Below are positions 5,789 through 52,913 of a stretch of 52,933 nucleotides of DNA, piece by piece; position 1 is the first letter of the stretch, and each line of letters opens with the position of its first letter. The notes under the pieces were generated by a model. That model did no database searches. It saw only the letters and a program-made list of their open reading frames with translations, and was not told the DNA's origin. Origin of the DNA: Deltaproteobacteria bacterium (GTDB lineage: Bacteria; Myxococcota; XYA12-FULL-58-9); assembly GCA_016218825.1 (NCBI GenBank), contig JACRCV010000075.1, positions 230,358 to 283,290 on the forward strand, in the 5' to 3' direction. Made by a program: the position numbers and the translations under genes.

Positions 5789-6282
5789 CGCGGAAGGACG
5801 AAGCGATCGTCGTCCCCGCCCCACCCGGAGGCGGGGAAAGAGGGGTGGAGGTGGGGAGCGCGGACGCCTCGTCCGCGCGGGAATCAGCTGCAGACGAAAG
5901 TGATCGCGGGGAAACGCGGCCAGAGAGCCGGCGCGCCCGCGGCAGCGCCGCCGAGGAGCTGGCGGCGTCCTACCTGGAGGATCGCGGCTATCGCTTGATC
6001 GCCCGCAACTTCCGCACCGCGAGCGGCGAGGTCGATCTGATCGCGTTCGACGGCGAGGTGCTCTGCTTCATCGAGGTGCGGTCGCGCCACGACGAGCTTC
6101 GGGGTCACCCGCTCGAGACCATCGATCGCAAGAAGATCCGCCGCGTGGTCCGCGCCGCCGAGGAGTACCTGAAGAAGGTCCCGCATCCGTGGCCGGAGAT
6201 GCGCTTCGACGCGGTCGGCATCGTGATGTCGGCGCCGCCGCAGATCACCCTGGTGCGAGACGCGTTCGAGGCCCTGCCGTGA
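5785..6282 (+). CDS. yraN: YraN-family (UPF0102) predicted endonuclease with repeat-encoded N-terminus
   Basis: The conserved domain (about residues 50-165) belongs to the restriction-endonuclease-like YraN family: AAEELAASYLEDRGYRLIAR, SGEVDLIAFDG and LCFIEVRSR supply the GEVD...EVR nuclease-like motif. The biological role of the family is not firmly known. The start is GTG 5785, overlapping the previous stop. No canonical start lies between bases 5853 and the conserved domain, so the first 50 or so residues are needed. They are largely encoded by a copy of the dispersed repeat (5803-5900), making this protein longer than the usual 115-130 residues. It overlaps rsmI by GTGA. Confidence 0.85.
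   Translation: MTRKDEAIVVPAPPGGGERGVEVGSADASSARESAADESDRGETRPESRRARGSAAEELAASYLEDRGYRLIARNFRTASGEVDLIAFDGEVLCFIEVRSRHDELRGHPLETIDRKKIRRVVRAAEEYLKKVPHPWPEMRFDAVGIVMSAPPQITLVRDAFEALP
5803..5900 (+). repeat. Dispersed two-hairpin repeat, copy A (inside yraN)
   Basis: Hairpin 1 has arms CCCCGCC and GGCGGGG (about 5813-5835). Hairpin 2 has arms GCGCGGAC (5858-5865) and GTCCGCGC (5871-5878). The invariant core GTGGGGAGCGC lies between them and the tail GGGAATCA ends at 5886, with CGAAAG at 5895-5900. The left GCGATCGTCG matches copy B. Unlike the other copies it lies inside a reading frame. Confidence 0.8.
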
Positions 6283-20137: not shown

Positions 20138-22209
20138 CCTTGGGGCGCACCTACGAGCTCGCGCTGCTCACGACCACGCTCCTCGGGCTCGGGAGCGTGC
20201 TGTTGGGCGGCGAGATGCCCTGGGCGAGCTTTCTCGCGCTCGCGGCGCCGCTCTTCTCCTACGCGCGCGGCCGGGAGCGGCCGCTGCCGCTCGCGCTCGG
20301 CACCGGGCTCGGCGCCGTCGGGGGGCTCGCGGCGGTGGCGATCGTCTGGCGGCAGGGGGTCGAGGCCCTGGTGATGGCGGTGGCGCTGTTTCTCGTAGGG
20401 CTGTTGTGCGGCCGCCTGCTCACCCGTCGCACCTTCGACCATGATCTGCAGGCCATCCTGCTGTCGCTCCTGCTCGTGTTCGCCGGCACCATCGTCCACA
20501 CCCAGATAACCTATGGAGTTGTTTTTGCACTGTTTTCTGTCGCGGCGGTGATCGCCCTCGTGTCCCGGCAGCTCGTGATCCTCGCGGCCGAAGACGCCCG
20601 CCTCAAAGGGTATGGGACGACCGGGCTCGCGCGCCGCGACGTCGTGACCCCGACGTTCCTGGCGGTCACGAGCGGCCTCGCGCTCGTGCTCCTCGTCGGC
20701 ACCGCGTTACTGTTCATGTTGTTCCCGCGCTTCGGGCTCGGGGCGCTGGGGCTCGTGCGCCGCGGGCCACGGGCGCTGCCCGCGAACGTGTCGCTCGTCG
20801 GCCTGGCGCGGGCCGGGGCGGGGAGCGGCGAGGTGCTGGCGCGGGTGCGGGGCGTGCCGTACGCCGAGCTCGAGCGCGGTCTGTACCTGCGCGGTCCGGT
20901 CTACGAAGACTTCGTCGGCGACGGCTTCGTCGAGTCTGGGCGTCTCGAGGCCGTGGCGCGCCTCCCCACCGGCGCGCTCGTCGGCGGCCGCGAGCTCAGC
21001 TACGAGGTCTTCATGCAGCCAATCTCGGCGGTCGCGCTCCTGACCTTGGGGCCGGTCAAGGATGCCCGGATCATCGCCGGCGGCACCGCGAACCCCTCGG
21101 CCCAGAGCTTCGTCAGTCGCCTGGGGTTCGAGGACGGGCTCCGGGCCGCGAGGCCGCTCCTCGGTCCGGTGCGCTACGCGGTCACCGGGCCGGTCGCCCG
21201 CCCGGGCAGCGCGAAGGTCACGCCCGCACCCGTCCTTTCTGCCGGCGAAACCGCCCGGTTGCAGCGAGGCCTGGAGCCGTTCTTGCGGCTGCCCGAGGGC
21301 CTCGATCCGAGGGTGCGCCGCCTCGCCGCAGAGGTGGTGGGAACGGCCCAGTCGCCAAGAGAGAAAGCGTTTAGATTACGGGAGTATCTCGGCAGTAACT
21401 TCACCTATTCTCTCGATCTGCCGAACGCCGGCAAGGCCGATCCGCTGGCGGGGTTTCTCTTCGAAGATCGGCGTGGCCACTGCGAGTATTTCGCGACCGC
21501 GTTCGCGGTGTTGCTGCGCGCGGTCTCGGTGCCGGCGCGGGTCGTCGGTGGCTTCCAGGGGGGCTACTGGGACGAGAACGGCGAGGTGGTCGTCTTTACG
21601 TCGGAGAACGCGCACGCCTGGGTGGAGTGGCACGACGACGGGGTGGGCTTCGTGGTCGACGACGCGACCCCGGCGAGCGAGGCCGCCCTCAGGCGCTTGT
21701 CGGGCCTTGCCGCCTTCGTCGAGCGCTGGCGACGCCTTTGGGACGACTACGTCGTCGAGTACAACCTGCAGCAGCAAGTGGCGATGTTCGACCGGGTCGA
21801 GAGGGTGATGCGGGGCAAGAGCGTCGATCTGAGCTCGAGCCTCAACCTCAAGAAGCTCGGCCTCGGCGCCGGGTGCCTGCTCGTGGTGCTCGCGGCCGCC
21901 TTCTTCCTCTGGCAGCGACGCGGCCCCGGCAGGGGGGCGAGAGGGCGGCGGGCCTCGGCGTTGGCGCGCCAGCTGGCGCTGTCGTTGGGCAAGCTGCGCG
22001 GGCTCCCGGTCCGGGACGGCGAGACCTTCCGCGAGGCAGCCGCGAGCCTTCCGGGCGGCAGAGCGGCGGCGTTGATCTGGGAAGCGATCCGGCTGTACGA
22101 GGCCGAGCGGTTCAACGACGTCCACTTGCAGGCGGCGCGAAGCCGCGCGCTCGTCAAGGCGCTCAAGGCCGAGCGGCGCCGGGCGCCCGCGCCCGTCGAG
22201 CGGTCGTAG
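20134..22209 (+). CDS. Membrane-bound transglutaminase-like protein (DUF3488/TgpA type)
   Basis: A 691-residue protein with about six N-terminal membrane segments (first 210 residues), a periplasmic transglutaminase-core domain and a C-terminal membrane helix near residues 575-592. The cysteine-peptidase-like triad is visible: Cys450 (GHCEYFATAF), His494 (ENAHAWVEW) and Asp509/510 (VVDDATP). This architecture matches TgpA of Pseudomonas. It is the last gene of the MoxR-DUF58-transglutaminase operon. A copy of the dispersed repeat follows 10 bp after its stop. Confidence 0.9.
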   Translation: MTLGRTYELALLTTTLLGLGSVLLGGEMPWASFLALAAPLFSYARGRERPLPLALGTGLGAVGGLAAVAIVWRQGVEALVMAVALFLVGLLCGRLLTRRTFDHDLQAILLSLLLVFAGTIVHTQITYGVVFALFSVAAVIALVSRQLVILAAEDARLKGYGTTGLARRDVVTPTFLAVTSGLALVLLVGTALLFMLFPRFGLGALGLVRRGPRALPANVSLVGLARAGAGSGEVLARVRGVPYAELERGLYLRGPVYEDFVGDGFVESGRLEAVARLPTGALVGGRELSYEVFMQPISAVALLTLGPVKDARIIAGGTANPSAQSFVSRLGFEDGLRAARPLLGPVRYAVTGPVARPGSAKVTPAPVLSAGETARLQRGLEPFLRLPEGLDPRVRRLAAEVVGTAQSPREKAFRLREYLGSNFTYSLDLPNAGKADPLAGFLFEDRRGHCEYFATAFAVLLRAVSVPARVVGGFQGGYWDENGEVVVFTSENAHAWVEWHDDGVGFVVDDATPASEAALRRLSGLAAFVERWRRLWDDYVVEYNLQQQVAMFDRVERVMRGKSVDLSSSLNLKKLGLGAGCLLVVLAAAFFLWQRRGPGRGARGRRASALARQLALSLGKLRGLPVRDGETFREAAASLPGGRAAALIWEAIRLYEAERFNDVHLQAARSRALVKALKAERRRAPAPVERS

Positions 22210-22219
22210 CCGCGCTCGA

Positions 22220-22358
22220 CCGCTTTCGCGCCGTAGCGATCGTCGCCCCCGCCCACCCGGGGCGGGGGAATTTGGCCGACGCTGAGATAGCGGACGGGGG
22301 GTGGGGTGGGGAGCGCGGACGCATCGTCCGCGCGGGAATCAGATGAAAACGAAAGCGG
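22220..22358 (+). repeat. Dispersed two-hairpin repeat, copy B (most complete, with terminal inverted repeats)
   Basis: Terminal inverted repeats CCGCTTTCG (22220-22228) and CGAAAGCGG (22350-22358). Hairpin 1 arms are CCCCCGCCC (22246-22254) and GGGCGGGGG (22260-22268). Hairpin 2 arms are GCGCGGAC (22313-22320) and GTCCGCGC (22326-22333), followed by GGGAATCA. It fills the gap between two convergent genes and abuts the stop of the minus-strand gene. Confidence 0.85.
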
Positions 22359-22359
22359 C

Positions 22360-22938
22360 CTAATTGCGGCACTCGACGAAGACAGCCTCGGGCTTCGCCG
22401 CGGCGACGAGCTTCTGAAACTTGTCGGAACCACTCACGATTCCGGGGTTCTTCTCGGTCAGATAGGTGGTCAGATCGACAGGCTTGCCGCGCCGCGAGAA
22501 GTACTGCGGTGCACCGACGACCTTGCCGGCGTCGAAGGTCGCGACGACGTCCTCCTTGCCGTTCGGCAGGTAGCGGACGAAGCGACCGTGCGCCTCCCCG
22601 GCGCGGCAGACGCCTTCCATCTCTTTGCCGCCGCTCTCGAAGAAGCGGGTCATCAGGCCGTCGGCCTTGTCGTCCGCGTAGGTCGCGCTGGCCATCGGCG
22701 CGCCGCTCTGGAACCAGAAACGCCAGGCGCCGGTCCGCTTGCCGTCGGCGTACTCGCCCTCGAACCAAGGCTTGCCGTTCTGGTGCCAGGCGTGCCGCGG
22801 CCCGTGGCGGGTGCCGTCGGGCTTTGCGCACCACGTCTCGCGCGCCGCCGCGGTCTTCTGTTCCTTGCGGGCGGCTCCGGTCGGGCAGGCGAGGGCCTCT
22901 GCGGCGGCGATGGAAAAGGTCAGCAAAACGCAGCACAT
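22360..22938 (-). CDS. Secreted MORN-type repeat protein (YwqK-like)
   Basis: A 192-residue protein with a short signal peptide ending near AEALA. The middle has at least four MORN-variant repeats of the form NGKPWFEGEY-DGKRTGAW, SGAPMASATY-DDKADGLM, SGGKEMEGVC-GEAHGRF and NGKEDVVATF. Such repeats occur in YwqK-family proteins, sometimes named antitoxin-like without proof. The ATG at 22938 gives the signal peptide; a longer frame upstream overlaps the divergent gene's control region. Function unknown. Confidence 0.75.
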   Translation of the reverse strand: MCCVLLTFSIAAAEALACPTGAARKEQKTAAARETWCAKPDGTRHGPRHAWHQNGKPWFEGEYADGKRTGAWRFWFQSGAPMASATYADDKADGLMTRFFESGGKEMEGVCRAGEAHGRFVRYLPNGKEDVVATFDAGKVVGAPQYFSRRGKPVDLTTYLTEKNPGIVSGSDKFQKLVAAAKPEAVFVECRN

Positions 22939-48045: not shown

Positions 48046-48122
48046 CCCCTCGCCCCACTCGGGGGCGAGGGGTTGGGGGAGTGGGGGTGGGGAGCGCGGC
48101 AGCAGCGGCCGCGCGGGAATCA
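48046..48122 (+). repeat. Dispersed two-hairpin repeat, copy C
   Basis: Hairpin 1 arms CCCCTCGCCCC (48046-48056) and GGGGCGAGGGG (48062-48072), 11 bp. Core GTGGGGAGCGC, then hairpin 2 arms GCGCGGC and GCCGCGC, and GGGAATCA ending at 48122. The terminal inverted repeats seen in copy B are not clear here. It lies between convergent genes. Confidence 0.8.
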
Positions 48123-48141: not shown

Positions 48142-50064
48142 TTAGACCGGCGGGCTCACCGCCGGCGCGCGGTTCTTGAGCTCGGTGATCTCCGCCTGCG
48201 CTAGCGCCAGGCGGCTCTCCCACTCCTTGGCGTCGCGCTCGAGCTCGGCGATGCGCTCCTTTTGAGCACGGGCCTCGGCGCGGGCATCGGCGAGGCCTTG
48301 CCCGAGCTCCTCGGAGAGCTTGCCGGCCGCTTCGCGGTGGCGGGCAAACTCCGCCGCCAGCTGATCGAACTCGGCCCGCGCGCTCTTGACCTCGCCCTCG
48401 AGCCCCTGGGCCCGCTCGTCCTTCTCCTGGATCGCCCGCTTGAGCTCGGTGACCCGCTCCTGGTGCTCGAGCCCCTCGCGGCCCATCTGCTCGGTCATCA
48501 CCGACAGGGTCTTCTCGCGCTCGCTGACCCGCTCCTGGATCTTCTGGCGCGAGTCCTTGACCGCGAGGACCTCGGCTTCGGCGCGGCCGACCTTCGTCTC
48601 GAGGTCGGCCTTGGCGGCCGTCACCTGCTGGTTGGCGCTCGCCAGCGCCGCCTCGGTCGTCGCCAGGGCGGCGCGGCTCCGTTCGAGGTCGGCCTTGGTG
48701 GCGTCGAGCTCGGCGGACAGCGCCGCCAGACGTTGGTTGAGCTCCGCCTCGGTGGTCGCCGCGGCGGCGGTGAGCTCCTGGGTGCGACGCTCCAAGTCCG
48801 CCCGGGCGCCGGCGAGCTCGTCGCCGAGGCCGGTGATGCTCTGGGCGTGCTCGGCGAGGCTGCGGCTCTGCTCCTCGACGATCTGATCGCGCGCCACCAC
48901 CGCCGCCTGCGTCGTGGCCAGCTCCGCTTCGGTGGTCGCGAGCTTCTCGTCGCGCGCCGCGAGCCGGCTCTCGAGGTCGGTGATGGTGCGCGCCGAGCCG
49001 TCACGCAGCTGGGTGAACGCGGTCTGGGCCGCCTCCATCTTGGCGCGGAACTCGCCGATGAGCGCGGCCTTCTCCTGCTCTTCTTTGACGAGGCGGGCGT
49101 TCAAGGCCGCGATGCTCTGCTCCGACTCCTTGCGCAGGCGGTTCAGCTGCCCCTCGAGGCCGTTGCGGGTGGCCTCGAGATCGTTGATGGTGTTGCGCAG
49201 CGCCTCGGCCTCGCCGCGGTGTTGGGCGGCGGCGCGCGTCCCCTGGTCTTTGACCTGGGTGTAGCGCTGCACCGAGGTGCTGCGCTCGGCTTCCTTGGCG
49301 GCGATGATCTGATCGAAGGCGTCGAACTGCGCCTGCTTGATGCGCCAGATGTGACCGACCCGCGCCAGATCGCGCTCCATCTCCCGGACCTTGTCGCGCA
49401 AGAACTGCATCTTCTTGTCGAGGCCGGCCAGGGCCTTGCGGGGCGGGGGGGGCGGCGGCGAGCGGAAGTCGACGTCCTTCACCTGGACGAACACCCGCTG
49501 GATGAACTCGAGATCCTCGGGCGAGACCTCGCCGAGGTTGGGCGCGAGCTGCCGCGCTTGCAGCGGCGGCGGTGCCCCGGACGGCGTCGCGGCGACCGGG
49601 GGGCTCTCGACGAGGTCGGGCTCGACGCTCGACAACGCCTCCGCGTCGACCATCTCCGGCTCGGCGGTCTCGGCAGCGGCGGCCGGCGGCGGCGGCGTGC
49701 CGGCGACCGGGGGCGCGGCCGGTGGCGACGCCTTGGCGCGTTCGGCCTCGACCGCGGTCAGGAGCTGCTGGATGAACATCACCGCGGTTTCAGCGTCGGC
49801 CCAGTGGCGGACGACGACGGCCTGCCCGCCGCCCTCGGGCGGTCGGTCGACGGCGCCGGTGCAGAGCACGAAGACCCGAAGGACGTTGTCGGCCTTCAGC
49901 GCCTGGCCTCGCCCCCACGGGTCATCCGCCACCACGGCGACCACCACGCAGGGCGCCGGCGTCGGCGCGACGGTCACCGGGATGCTCTCCGCCTCGAGCG
50001 CAGCCTTGAGGGCGGCACCGTGCTCGGCGTCGTGACTCACAAGATGGATCGCTATGCCCGCCAT
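48142..50064 (-). CDS. Pseudoreceiver plus long coiled-coil protein (AglZ/FrzS-like layout)
   Basis: A 640-residue protein. Residues 1-105 resemble a response-regulator receiver by strand/helix pattern (IAIHLVSHDAEHGAALK, VVVAVVADD, VLRVFVLCTG, VVVRHW) but lack a clear phospho-acceptor Asp and the conserved Lys. A Pro/Ala linker (110-195) leads to a coiled coil from about 210 to 630. The same order, pseudoreceiver then coiled coil, is known in AglZ and FrzS, which mark the poles in Myxococcus motility. Homology is not established here. The stop codon is 20 bp from repeat copy C. Confidence 0.65.
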   Translation of the reverse strand: MAGIAIHLVSHDAEHGAALKAALEAESIPVTVAPTPAPCVVVAVVADDPWGRGQALKADNVLRVFVLCTGAVDRPPEGGGQAVVVRHWADAETAVMFIQQLLTAVEAERAKASPPAAPPVAGTPPPPAAAAETAEPEMVDAEALSSVEPDLVESPPVAATPSGAPPPLQARQLAPNLGEVSPEDLEFIQRVFVQVKDVDFRSPPPPPPRKALAGLDKKMQFLRDKVREMERDLARVGHIWRIKQAQFDAFDQIIAAKEAERSTSVQRYTQVKDQGTRAAAQHRGEAEALRNTINDLEATRNGLEGQLNRLRKESEQSIAALNARLVKEEQEKAALIGEFRAKMEAAQTAFTQLRDGSARTITDLESRLAARDEKLATTEAELATTQAAVVARDQIVEEQSRSLAEHAQSITGLGDELAGARADLERRTQELTAAAATTEAELNQRLAALSAELDATKADLERSRAALATTEAALASANQQVTAAKADLETKVGRAEAEVLAVKDSRQKIQERVSEREKTLSVMTEQMGREGLEHQERVTELKRAIQEKDERAQGLEGEVKSARAEFDQLAAEFARHREAAGKLSEELGQGLADARAEARAQKERIAELERDAKEWESRLALAQAEITELKNRAPAVSPPV

Positions 50065-50252: not shown

Positions 50253-52793
50253 GTGCTGATCTGGACGCTGGCGGCGACCCTCGGAGCCGCGCCCTGTGAA
50301 CGATTGGATCTCGACGCGGAGATCGGCGCCGACCTCCGCGAGATCCACGGCTCGGTCACCTGCGTCGGGTCGGGCGCCGCCGCGTTCGACGTCGCGCTCT
50401 ACCCCAACCTCCTCCGCTCGCCGGCGGGCCTCGACGACATCAACCGCGCCTGGTTCTATCCCGCGGGCTTCGACGCCGCCCTGATCCGGGTGGCGCAGGA
50501 CGGCCGGGAGCAGCCAACCGAGCGCATCTGGCTCCGCGTCGACAGCGGCGGCAACGATGTCACGCTCGAGTTCGCCACCCGGGTGCCGCGGCGCAACGGC
50601 ACCTTCGGCGTGGCGTCCGGCGTGGCATACCTCTTGGGCGGCTGGCATCCGGTGTTCGCGCGCGATCGACGCCTGCAGGCGCAGCCCATCCGCTACCGGG
50701 TCCGGGTGCCGCCAGGGGTGGTCGGCTTCGTCGGCGCGACGCCCGTCGGTCGCAGCGCGGCGCGTGACGTCGAAGGGACGGCGTTCGGGGAGTTCTTGCC
50801 GGTGCTCTTGGCGCCGGCGGCAAAGATCGTGAGCCGACCGTCCTTCGTGGTGGTGCAGCCGAGGTCCGGGGGCGAGCACCGGCCGTTCGCGGCTGCCGAC
50901 GACCTGCAGGACGTCACCGCGAGCCTCGACGACGGGGCCCTCCTCCGCCTCGAGGAGACGCTCGCCGCCGGTGACGAGTTCGCGATCGAGAGCGGCGTCG
51001 GACCGCGGGCGCGCCTCGTGGTGGTGGTGGCGCCGCTGCGCGAGAGCCTGGTCGAGCCCTTTGACGGCGGCCTCGCGGTCTCCGACCGGGCGTTCCACCT
51101 GCTCGGCTTCGAGCGTCTGCTGCAGTTTCACCGCCTGAGCATCTGGCGGGAGCAGCTCGCGGCCCGGGCCCTGCCCGCGTGCCGGGCCCAGGCCGATCTC
51201 TTCCCCGAGGAGCTGTGCGCCGACGCGGTGGGGGCGGCGCTGCGGGACCGGTTGGGCCGAAGTCGCTACGGCCGCAAGGAGTCGGCGGCCGATCTGCTCG
51301 AGACCTTCGCGGTCATTCCGGAGATCGATGCCTTGATCTTCGCGCCGCAGGTGGCCTTCGCCACCACCTACTTCGACGCCATCGACGAGAGCCCGAAGCG
51401 CCGCTGGCGGCTCGACAACTTCGACACCGAGCTGCCGCGCGGCAAGCTCTTGTACGAGAAGCTCGTCGACCGTCTGGGGGCGGCGGCGGTGGCGACGGCG
51501 GTCGATCGTTTCACCGGCGGCGAGGCGTCGTTGTGGCAGGCGGTCGCGAGCGTCGCGGGCGCCGACCTGAGTGCCTGGCTGTCGACGTGGCTCGGACCCA
51601 CGCCGCGAGTCGACTACAGGCTGGGCGCGATCACACACGCGGCCCACGCCACCCGCGTCGAGGTGGCGGCCACCGGCCCGGACGCGGCGCGCGTCGCCGA
51701 GACCATCGAGGTCGAGGTCGTCGGCGCGGACGGCAAGGCCCAGACGGTCTCTCGGCTCGGCCCCGGCGTGGTCGAGGTGCCGGGCGCGGCGGCGCCGGCG
51801 CGCGTCGAGATCGATCCCCGCGGCCGCCTCGTCGAGCTGGTGCACGCCGACGGCGAGGCGCCGCGCTTCAACAACCGCACCCCACCCCGCTGGCGTTTCC
51901 TGCTCAACAACATCACCTCCCTGATCGCGGTGACCAACCGCGAGCTGACGGCGGCGGCGGACTTCTCGCTGCGCCGCATCTACGATCTCACCTGGCGCTC
52001 GGACTTCTTCGCCCTCTACAGCCCGACCAGCGTCGGCCTCGCCGCGGCGTTGAGCTACAGCTTCGGCCCCGAGGTGACCGCGCTGCATCTGGCGCACCGC
52101 GCGGGCCTGAGCGGCGGCTACGAGCGGCTGCGGAGCGACGCCGGCGGGGGCCTCCCGGGCGACCTGGGCTCGATGCAGCTGTACTACTCCTATGACGACC
52201 GCCTGAGCCCCTACTGGTCCTTCGAAGGCAAGGGCTGGTCGGCCCGTCTCGCCGGCGCCTACGGCGTCGACACCCACGGCGCTCGGCACCGGTTCGTGCA
52301 GGGCGGCGTCTCGGCGTTCTACATCCAGCCGTTGGCGTTCGGCCACGCGCTCCTCGCCCGGCTGCGCGCCGACTTCGTGCAAGGCGATCCGCCGCCGCAG
52401 AACACCTTGCGCCTGGGCGATCGCTACCGCGGCGCGCGCGGCTTCGAGCGCGACGAGGTCAGGGGGACACGGCGGGTCATCGGCAGCGCCGAGTACCGCC
52501 ACCTGCTCGAGGGCGACGGTCGCACCGACTTCGCCGGCGCCGCGACCTGGTCGCGCTTCGAGGGCGCGCTGTTCGGCGACGCCGTCTACCTGCCGGTGTC
52601 CCGCCCCGGGTGCCGACAATCGATGTTCTACGACGTCGGCTACGGCCTGCGCTTCATCGCCGACGTGCTCGGGGTGTCGCCGGCGGAGGTGGCGATCGAT
52701 CTCGGGGTGCCGATCCGGCGCTGCGCGGACGTGGGCTCCCGCCTGCCGTTCTCGGTCTACCTGGCGTTCGAGCAGTCGTTTGCGGTGTTTTAG
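50253..52793 (+). CDS. Outer-membrane barrel protein with a degenerate M1-peptidase-like N-terminus
   Basis: An 846-residue protein starting at GTG 50253, five bases after GGGAG, giving a signal peptide (VLIWTLAATLGAAPC). Residues 20-470 follow the layout of an M1 aminopeptidase: LREIHGSVT, a WHPVFARDR beta domain, and GADLSAWLSTWLGP near the end, but HExxH and the downstream Glu are absent. Residues 540-846 alternate in a pattern like the Omp85/D15 barrel (YYSYDDRLSPYW, GDRYRGARGFERDE, VYLAFEQSFAVF terminal strand with C-terminal Phe). The combination suggests a secretion or surface-display role. Confidence 0.65.
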   Translation: MLIWTLAATLGAAPCERLDLDAEIGADLREIHGSVTCVGSGAAAFDVALYPNLLRSPAGLDDINRAWFYPAGFDAALIRVAQDGREQPTERIWLRVDSGGNDVTLEFATRVPRRNGTFGVASGVAYLLGGWHPVFARDRRLQAQPIRYRVRVPPGVVGFVGATPVGRSAARDVEGTAFGEFLPVLLAPAAKIVSRPSFVVVQPRSGGEHRPFAAADDLQDVTASLDDGALLRLEETLAAGDEFAIESGVGPRARLVVVVAPLRESLVEPFDGGLAVSDRAFHLLGFERLLQFHRLSIWREQLAARALPACRAQADLFPEELCADAVGAALRDRLGRSRYGRKESAADLLETFAVIPEIDALIFAPQVAFATTYFDAIDESPKRRWRLDNFDTELPRGKLLYEKLVDRLGAAAVATAVDRFTGGEASLWQAVASVAGADLSAWLSTWLGPTPRVDYRLGAITHAAHATRVEVAATGPDAARVAETIEVEVVGADGKAQTVSRLGPGVVEVPGAAAPARVEIDPRGRLVELVHADGEAPRFNNRTPPRWRFLLNNITSLIAVTNRELTAAADFSLRRIYDLTWRSDFFALYSPTSVGLAAALSYSFGPEVTALHLAHRAGLSGGYERLRSDAGGGLPGDLGSMQLYYSYDDRLSPYWSFEGKGWSARLAGAYGVDTHGARHRFVQGGVSAFYIQPLAFGHALLARLRADFVQGDPPPQNTLRLGDRYRGARGFERDEVRGTRRVIGSAEYRHLLEGDGRTDFAGAATWSRFEGALFGDAVYLPVSRPGCRQSMFYDVGYGLRFIADVLGVSPAEVAIDLGVPIRRCADVGSRLPFSVYLAFEQSFAVF

Positions 52794-52794
52794 A

Positions 52795-52913
52795 CCGCTT
52801 TCGTGCTGACGCGCTCGTCGTGCCCGCCCCACTCGGGGGCGTGATCCGGCGAGGCTCGGAAGTACTCAGGGGGGGGGGTGGGGAGCGCCCCGGCAGCCGC
52901 GGCGCGGGAATCA
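52795..52913 (+). repeat. Dispersed two-hairpin repeat, copy D
   Basis: Starts with CCGCTTTCG (52795-52803), two bases after the TAG of the barrel gene. Hairpin 1 arms CGCCCC and GGGGCG. The GTGGGGAGCGC core is present, followed by hairpin 2 arms GCGCC and GGCGC and GGGAATCA (52906-52913). A matching right terminal repeat is not found before the window ends; it may lie beyond. Confidence 0.75.

Follow-up and report, generated by a model that had tools for sequence, protein, structure and literature searches.

A dispersed two-hairpin repeat, probably MITE-like and often abutting stop codons, in a Myxococcota genome

A short, non-coding repeat containing two hairpins is dispersed through a 6.54-Mb draft genome of the Myxococcota (the home genome), in which its strict unit, GTGGGGAGCGC-N5-30-GCGCGGGAATCA, occurs 107 times (reversed control, 0) and its core GTGGGGAGCGC has 134 matches against 2 for the reversed pattern. 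The repeat is probably a non-autonomous, MITE-like element moved in trans, now or formerly, by a transposase of the IS630/Tc1-mariner type that targets TA or CTAG. It represents a new family of a known mini-transposon kind and adds an abundant, lineage-restricted mini-transposon to the Myxococcota. A first-pass annotation of the window (the whole stretch of DNA that was analysed, 52,933 nt) had described four copies (A to D) as a dispersed family with no known name, and on re-reading all four are present at the positions given, with the arms attributed to them. The family is far larger than these four, and it still lacks a named counterpart, as Rfam returned only a tRNA above the gathering threshold on the whole window and nothing near gathering on copy B alone. 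At 22173-22210 of the window, within the end of a coding gene, CRISPR-DR29 of Rfam scores 24.6 bits, below its gathering value of 39; this match is probably due to chance in G+C-rich sequence.

The element measures about 120-145 bp, longer subfamilies also existing, and has the following layout: the left end GACCGCTTTCG and a spacer of about 20 nt lead to hairpin 1, after which come a linker, the heptamer GTGGGGA, hairpin 2, the conserved GGGAATCA and a right end of about 18 nt which finishes in CGAAAGCGGTC or GCAGAGCGCCC. Hairpin 1 consists of a C-rich arm, a conserved loop ACYCG and a G-rich arm, and hairpin 2 of GCGC plus five variable pairs around a three-nt loop. The linker is G-rich and contains a small third hairpin in some subfamilies; a G-quadruplex motif precedes the core in 63 of 102 copies and occurs in none of the control stretches. 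In a longer subfamily (8 copies) the linker is swapped for an extra stretch ending in CCCCGCTAGGTTGGCTGGGG. The features of the four window copies are as follows.

22218-22228, + strand: copy B, left terminal inverted repeat GACCGCTTTCG, read directly; its flank is TC, not TA
22246-22268, + strand: copy B, hairpin 1, CCCCCGCCC / ACCCG loop / GGGCGGGGG
22280-22292, + strand: copy B, optional linker hairpin CGCTGAGATAGCG, present in some subfamilies only
22293-22305, + strand: copy B, G-rich linker, the G-quadruplex region of the family
22306-22312, + strand: copy B, conserved core GTGGGGA, preceding hairpin 2
22313-22333, + strand: copy B, hairpin 2, GCGCGGACG / CAT / CGTCCGCGC
22334-22341, + strand: copy B, conserved GGGAATCA
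22350-22360, + strand: copy B, right terminal inverted repeat CGAAAGCGGCC
5814-5886, + strand: copy A, whole
5814-5836, + strand: copy A, hairpin 1, one mismatch
5851-5861, 5858-5878 and 5879-5886, + strand: copy A, core, hairpin 2 and GGGAATCA
48046-48122, + strand: copy C, whole
48046-48072 and 48087-48097, + strand: copy C, hairpin 1 and core
48094-48114 and 48115-48122, + strand: copy C, hairpin 2 and GGGAATCA
52793-52913, + strand: copy D, whole; the contig ends soon after
52793-52803, + strand: copy D, left terminal repeat GACCGCTTTCG, immediately after the TA of an upstream TAG stop (52791-52793)
52823-52843, + strand: copy D, hairpin 1, imperfect
52878-52888, 52885-52905 and 52906-52913, + strand: copy D, core, hairpin 2 and GGGAATCA

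The terminal repeat of copy B, previously given as 9 bp, is real and two bases longer, with one mismatch (GACCGCTTTCG/CGAAAGCGGCC). The TA that follows this copy (22361-22362) is part of the TAG stop of a minus-strand gene (22360-22926), and the TAA stop of another minus-strand gene lies at 48142, beyond copy C. Inspection of copies A and C revealed no recognisable terminal repeat pair.

The home assembly is a draft of 121 contigs with contig breaks at repeats. Copies were gathered with the core as bait, so that the invariance of the core is in part a matter of ascertainment, and the working set comprises about 100 distinct copies (102 in the analysis of ends, including L099, L101 and L103 from a genome of the same genus). 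Searching with a covariance model, as the annotation had advised, yielded further copies: at least 62 in the home genome and 7 in Myxococcota MAG RA.bin128 (3 by the strict pattern), the sole same-genus genome in the comparison, and none in 56 further Myxococcota relatives, which extend out to the level of the phylum. When 84,980 species were scanned with an exact pattern, only RA.bin128 and MAG ZH-Oct18-46 matched; the latter holds 2-3 copies, and 37 of its relatives that were scanned hold none. The copies in these two genomes show identical anatomy with different arms. Plasmids, phages and viral contigs gave no match to the repeat. Dispersal and lineage-specific amplification are observed directly, with copies arranged singly, in direct tandem or as head-to-head pairs.

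The ends of the element are imperfect inverted repeats, GACCGCTTTCG on the left and GGGCGCTCTGC, GGGCGCTCTGCACC or GACCGCTTTCG on the right. Terminal repeats occur in copies beyond B, albeit degenerate in many: the left end lies within three mismatches of GACCGCTTTCG in 28 copies and the right end in 29, good pairs are found in about 10 copies, many ends are degenerate or of the GGGCGCTCTGC type, and roughly half of the copies have neither a recognisable terminal repeat nor TA. Where ends can be recognised, TA adjoins them (7/18 and 11/35 right ends, 11/28 left ends) 23- to 29-fold more often than the flank background of 1.35%, frequently as CTAG; four copies have TA on both sides. One copy (L051, about 1460-1560) is set apart from all others by a 15-bp direct repeat GCCTAACGCTTCGCG on either side.

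Insertion is documented at one exact occupied/empty site. Copy L004, on contig 5 of G000, occupies an in-frame position in the linker that joins two ketosynthase domains, and two relatives, one of the same genus (G001) and one of another family of the same order (G004), align on both sides of it without a net 41 codons, or 123 nt. As counted in the sequence, the element GACCATTCTCG...CGCAAGCGGGC is 121 nt long with TG on each side, and 121 + 2 = 123. The duplication at this sole exact empty site is TG instead of TA. At a second locus (L018) the element is missing in G001. Over the family as a whole no general target-site duplication is seen, and a long one does not rise above shuffled flanks.

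Genes were called by a simple codon-usage script, so that single gene assignments may be wrong in what follows. The hairpin-2 end of the element faces a stop codon in 79 of 99 copies and the opposite end in 51 of 77. In 41 of the 79 the hairpin-2 side is 14-22 nt from the stop, which means that the end of the element abuts it, and 35 of these 41 abutting copies (85%) have TAG or TAA as the stop, as compared with 15 of the 38 others (P 2.6e-5). Copies are enriched between convergent genes (36/75 against 15/152 element-free gaps, P 4e-10). CTAG is rare here, and of its 15 occurrences in the window 7 are at stops and 3 in coding sequence. Several candidate properties were rejected: an orientation preference relative to genes (21:13 in tandem gene pairs, P 0.23); truncation of genes by an element that supplies the stop, since the homologous proteins have the same last residue; a terminator at a constant distance of 18-19 nt from the stop, which is actually the element's own right end; and an intrinsic terminator, given the lack of a U-tract (at copy B no terminator is listed). 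Other stretches 3' of stop codons (L070, L073, L016, L034) share GATCGTTCCGCGCCC or TCGCGCCCGCCGGTACCG and perhaps belong to related or additional small repeat families.

These positions can be understood if the transposase, in the manner of IS630/Tc1-mariner enzymes, inserts the element into TA, chiefly in a CTAG context, with duplication of the 2 bp. The IS630-family element ISY100 inserts into TA and duplicates it (PMC2170065), and IS630 is described as preferring TA in CTAG (Tenzen and Ohtsubo 1991, as cited in PMC2170065). In this genome of 70% G+C, CTAG is concentrated at stop codons and insertions would land there; the first base of the element, a G, would follow TA and regenerate TAG, so that insertions at the extreme ends of genes would presumably be harmless and pile up. 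The remaining positional bias would be due to purifying selection, which removes insertions from genes and promoters. A CTAG target combined with an end that starts with G would make this repeat a clear case of an element settling exactly on stop codons and leaving them undamaged.

The outcome of the search for a partner enzyme speaks against this account. The annotation had proposed a search for an enzyme with matching ends, and the draft assembly yielded neither a TA/CTAG-targeting transposase nor a RAYT with such ends. Genes for an IS630-type DDE_3 transposase (PF13358) and an IS110-type Transposase_20 (PF02371) are absent from the home assembly, and a partner of the IS4/IS5 type was rejected because the ends of the single DDE_Tnp_1 (PF01609) gene do not match. 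As the assembly breaks at repeats, the autonomous partner may be missing from it. In addition, a MITE of the DDE type needs no internal two-hairpin structure, and the conservation of this structure here counts against a MITE, as do the many copies with neither terminal repeat nor TA, the lack of a general duplication and the TG at the exact empty site; any role of the hairpins would be conjectural.

That the arms vary between copies and remain complementary was borne out by counts well above shuffles. For both hairpins, in a set of 39 copies drawn from three genomes, paired cells amount to 94.6%, compared with 80.7% after shuffling and no more than 57.7% after sliding; changes on both sides are seen in 12 of 20 pairs, and the covariation score of 0.325, against 0.099, was reached by 0 of 500 shuffles. 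Hairpin 2 examined in 34 distinct stem-loops of one genome gives 161 of 170 cells paired (94.7%; shuffles, mean 71.7% and maximum 82.4%). Compared with shuffled sequence, each of the two strands gives a better fold (z -2.1 to -3.1). The arms change mostly by clean double transversions, G-C becoming C-G, and mismatched intermediates are few. Wobbles in hairpin 2, read on the + strand, comprise 9 G-T and 1 A-C in 54 distinct stem-loops, small numbers which hint at a constraint specific to one strand; in hairpin 1 the asymmetry is lacking.

What the covariation means is a separate matter, for copies are related and template switching preserves palindromes, so that covariation alone is no proof of the selection on structure to which it had been ascribed. 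Template switching is known at quasi-palindromes. If one arm were copied onto the other during replication, pairing would be kept with no function involved and would leave the same trace as selection; a single templated event of this kind produces the clean double changes seen in the arms. The wobble asymmetry of hairpin 2 and the conserved purines beside its stem suggest instead a constraint on one strand, on few data and with hairpin 1 symmetric. A purely mutational origin of the covariation is possible, without being likely, and is compatible with a MITE. The hairpins might also be kept by a + strand that acts single-stranded in mobility, with a new enzyme recognising the two-hairpin fold (GTGGGGA-stem-GGGAATCA) and inserting beside stops; this proposal is rather improbable, and if true it would join REP-like recognition to TA-type ends in a hybrid that has no earlier description. 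An improbable source of the repeat is also a RAYT (Y1 tyrosine transposase) that would recognise hairpin 2 and the adjacent purine motifs as single-stranded DNA in an element of the REP/REPIN type. Such an enzyme would account for the retained pairing and for the wobbles, which mark out the + strand as the one that would function single-stranded; three PF01797 genes occur in the home genome, the single, direct-tandem and head-to-head copies resemble REPs and BIMEs, a location downstream of genes is REP-like (PMC3733652), and insertion sequences target the copies as they target REPs (PMC1525189). Against it, the element is not near any of the three Y1 genes, two of which carry other end repeats; GTAG or GGAG precedes hairpin 1 in 2 of 77 copies and CGTC in only 24 of 77; and RAYTs do not characteristically leave terminal repeats with a TA-type duplication. 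The two Y1 transposases in question (L061 and L062) have inverted ends of their own, GGTCAGGTACC/GGTACCTGACC and GTCAGACCCTGACACTTGACAT/ATGTCAAGTGTCCGGGTCTGAC. The annotation had left the choice between a MITE and a REP-like element moved in trans; the MITE and the movement in trans are retained here and the RAYT is set aside.

A cis-acting element of 3' untranslated regions, selected behind genes as a bidirectional transcription-end or mRNA-stability structure, would explain why both ends so often face stops (79/99 and 51/77), the enrichment in convergent gaps, the covarying arms and the folding of both strands. Followed in the direction of the gene that it abuts, the element would present the stop, about 18 nt, hairpin 2, a C-rich and G-poor linker and hairpin 1, an arrangement that could serve Rho loading or 3'-end protection. 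Such a function is nonetheless unlikely: there is no U-tract, the repeat is nearly absent from relatives, one copy lies within coding sequence, orientation in tandem pairs is not significantly biased, and a CTAG target accounts for the position with no function needed. Kinship with the CcrM-associated intergenic repeats of Caulobacter (CIR), two-armed elements that display a GANTC methylation site, is highly improbable. The two share the layout of two arms and a linker and a length of about 110 bp (PMC2229807), and 95 of 102 copies retain GAATC, which is a GANTC site; this motif, however, belongs to the search bait and stands beside the stem of hairpin 2 and not in or at the terminal loop as in CIR, and neither of the two genomes matched in the scan of 84,980 species is a Caulobacter.

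The repeat also appears to serve as a target for other mobile DNA. At least 17 copies are cut within hairpin 1, near contig ends, by termini of insertion-sequence-like elements. The type A terminus GATGCGATCAAGAGTCAGC, of a multicopy element, is found in hairpin 1 at 7 of 7 known ends (L012, L028, L031, L055, L240, L244, L246); a reading frame before this end closes with MNAIPRPEGRR and a stop. Types B and B' share the terminus AATGGTGAG (7 copies: L003, L267, L286, L037, L044, L056, L261) and use the repeat site-specifically, six of the 7 being at, or one base away from, TGAG|CCAC in the context TGAG|CCACYCGGGG. The type C terminus CACCTCATCCAATCT occurs in 3 copies (L015, L017, L038). In two further copies (L001, about 1464; L008, about 1467) the 13-14-nt piece CACCTCATCCAATCT alone replaces the loop, possibly as a trace of excision or as a variant of the target. 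From the joining of identical termini to different copies, and from the contig breaks, the invading elements are taken to be insertion sequences, their bodies being unassembled, and hairpin 1 would be a landing pad for at least three putative ones. Repeated hits by several insertion sequences make hairpin 1 useful for the study of target recognition, and the covariation of the arms across the many copies in a single genome constitutes a natural experiment on hairpin selection versus template-switch repair.

Among known repeats, the closest in kind to the favoured MITE are the IS630-dependent MITEs, among them RUP (repeat unit of pneumococcus), which are alike in size and copy number and, for the copies with recognisable ends, probably in terminal repeats and TA insertion. 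RUP is a non-autonomous element of about 107 bp that is present in more than 100 copies, carries terminal inverted repeats, inserts at TA and is moved in trans (PMC2229807). It has a partner, IS630-Spn1, whereas the present repeat is without one in the draft assembly; conversely, covarying inner hairpins have not been described for RUP, and here the ends are degenerate in half of the copies and CTAG at stops is a main landing site. CIR are similar in their two hairpin arms plus linker, their length of about 110 bp and a conserved GANTC motif, but no sequence relation was found, and the present repeat differs in having the motif outside the loop, in its terminal repeats and in the one copy that lies within a gene. 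REP, BIME and REPIN elements with their RAYTs are likewise extragenic palindromes behind genes, single and paired, and targets of insertion sequences; the repeat described here lacks the GTAG tag, is longer and has TA-flanked ends, and the RAYTs of this genome carry other repeats. ERIC, Correia/NEMIS and the Rickettsia palindromic elements are MITE-like, of 100-150 bp, with some copies in frame inside proteins (PMC2229807), and they fold end to end into one long hairpin, whereas two separate inner hairpins dominate the present element.
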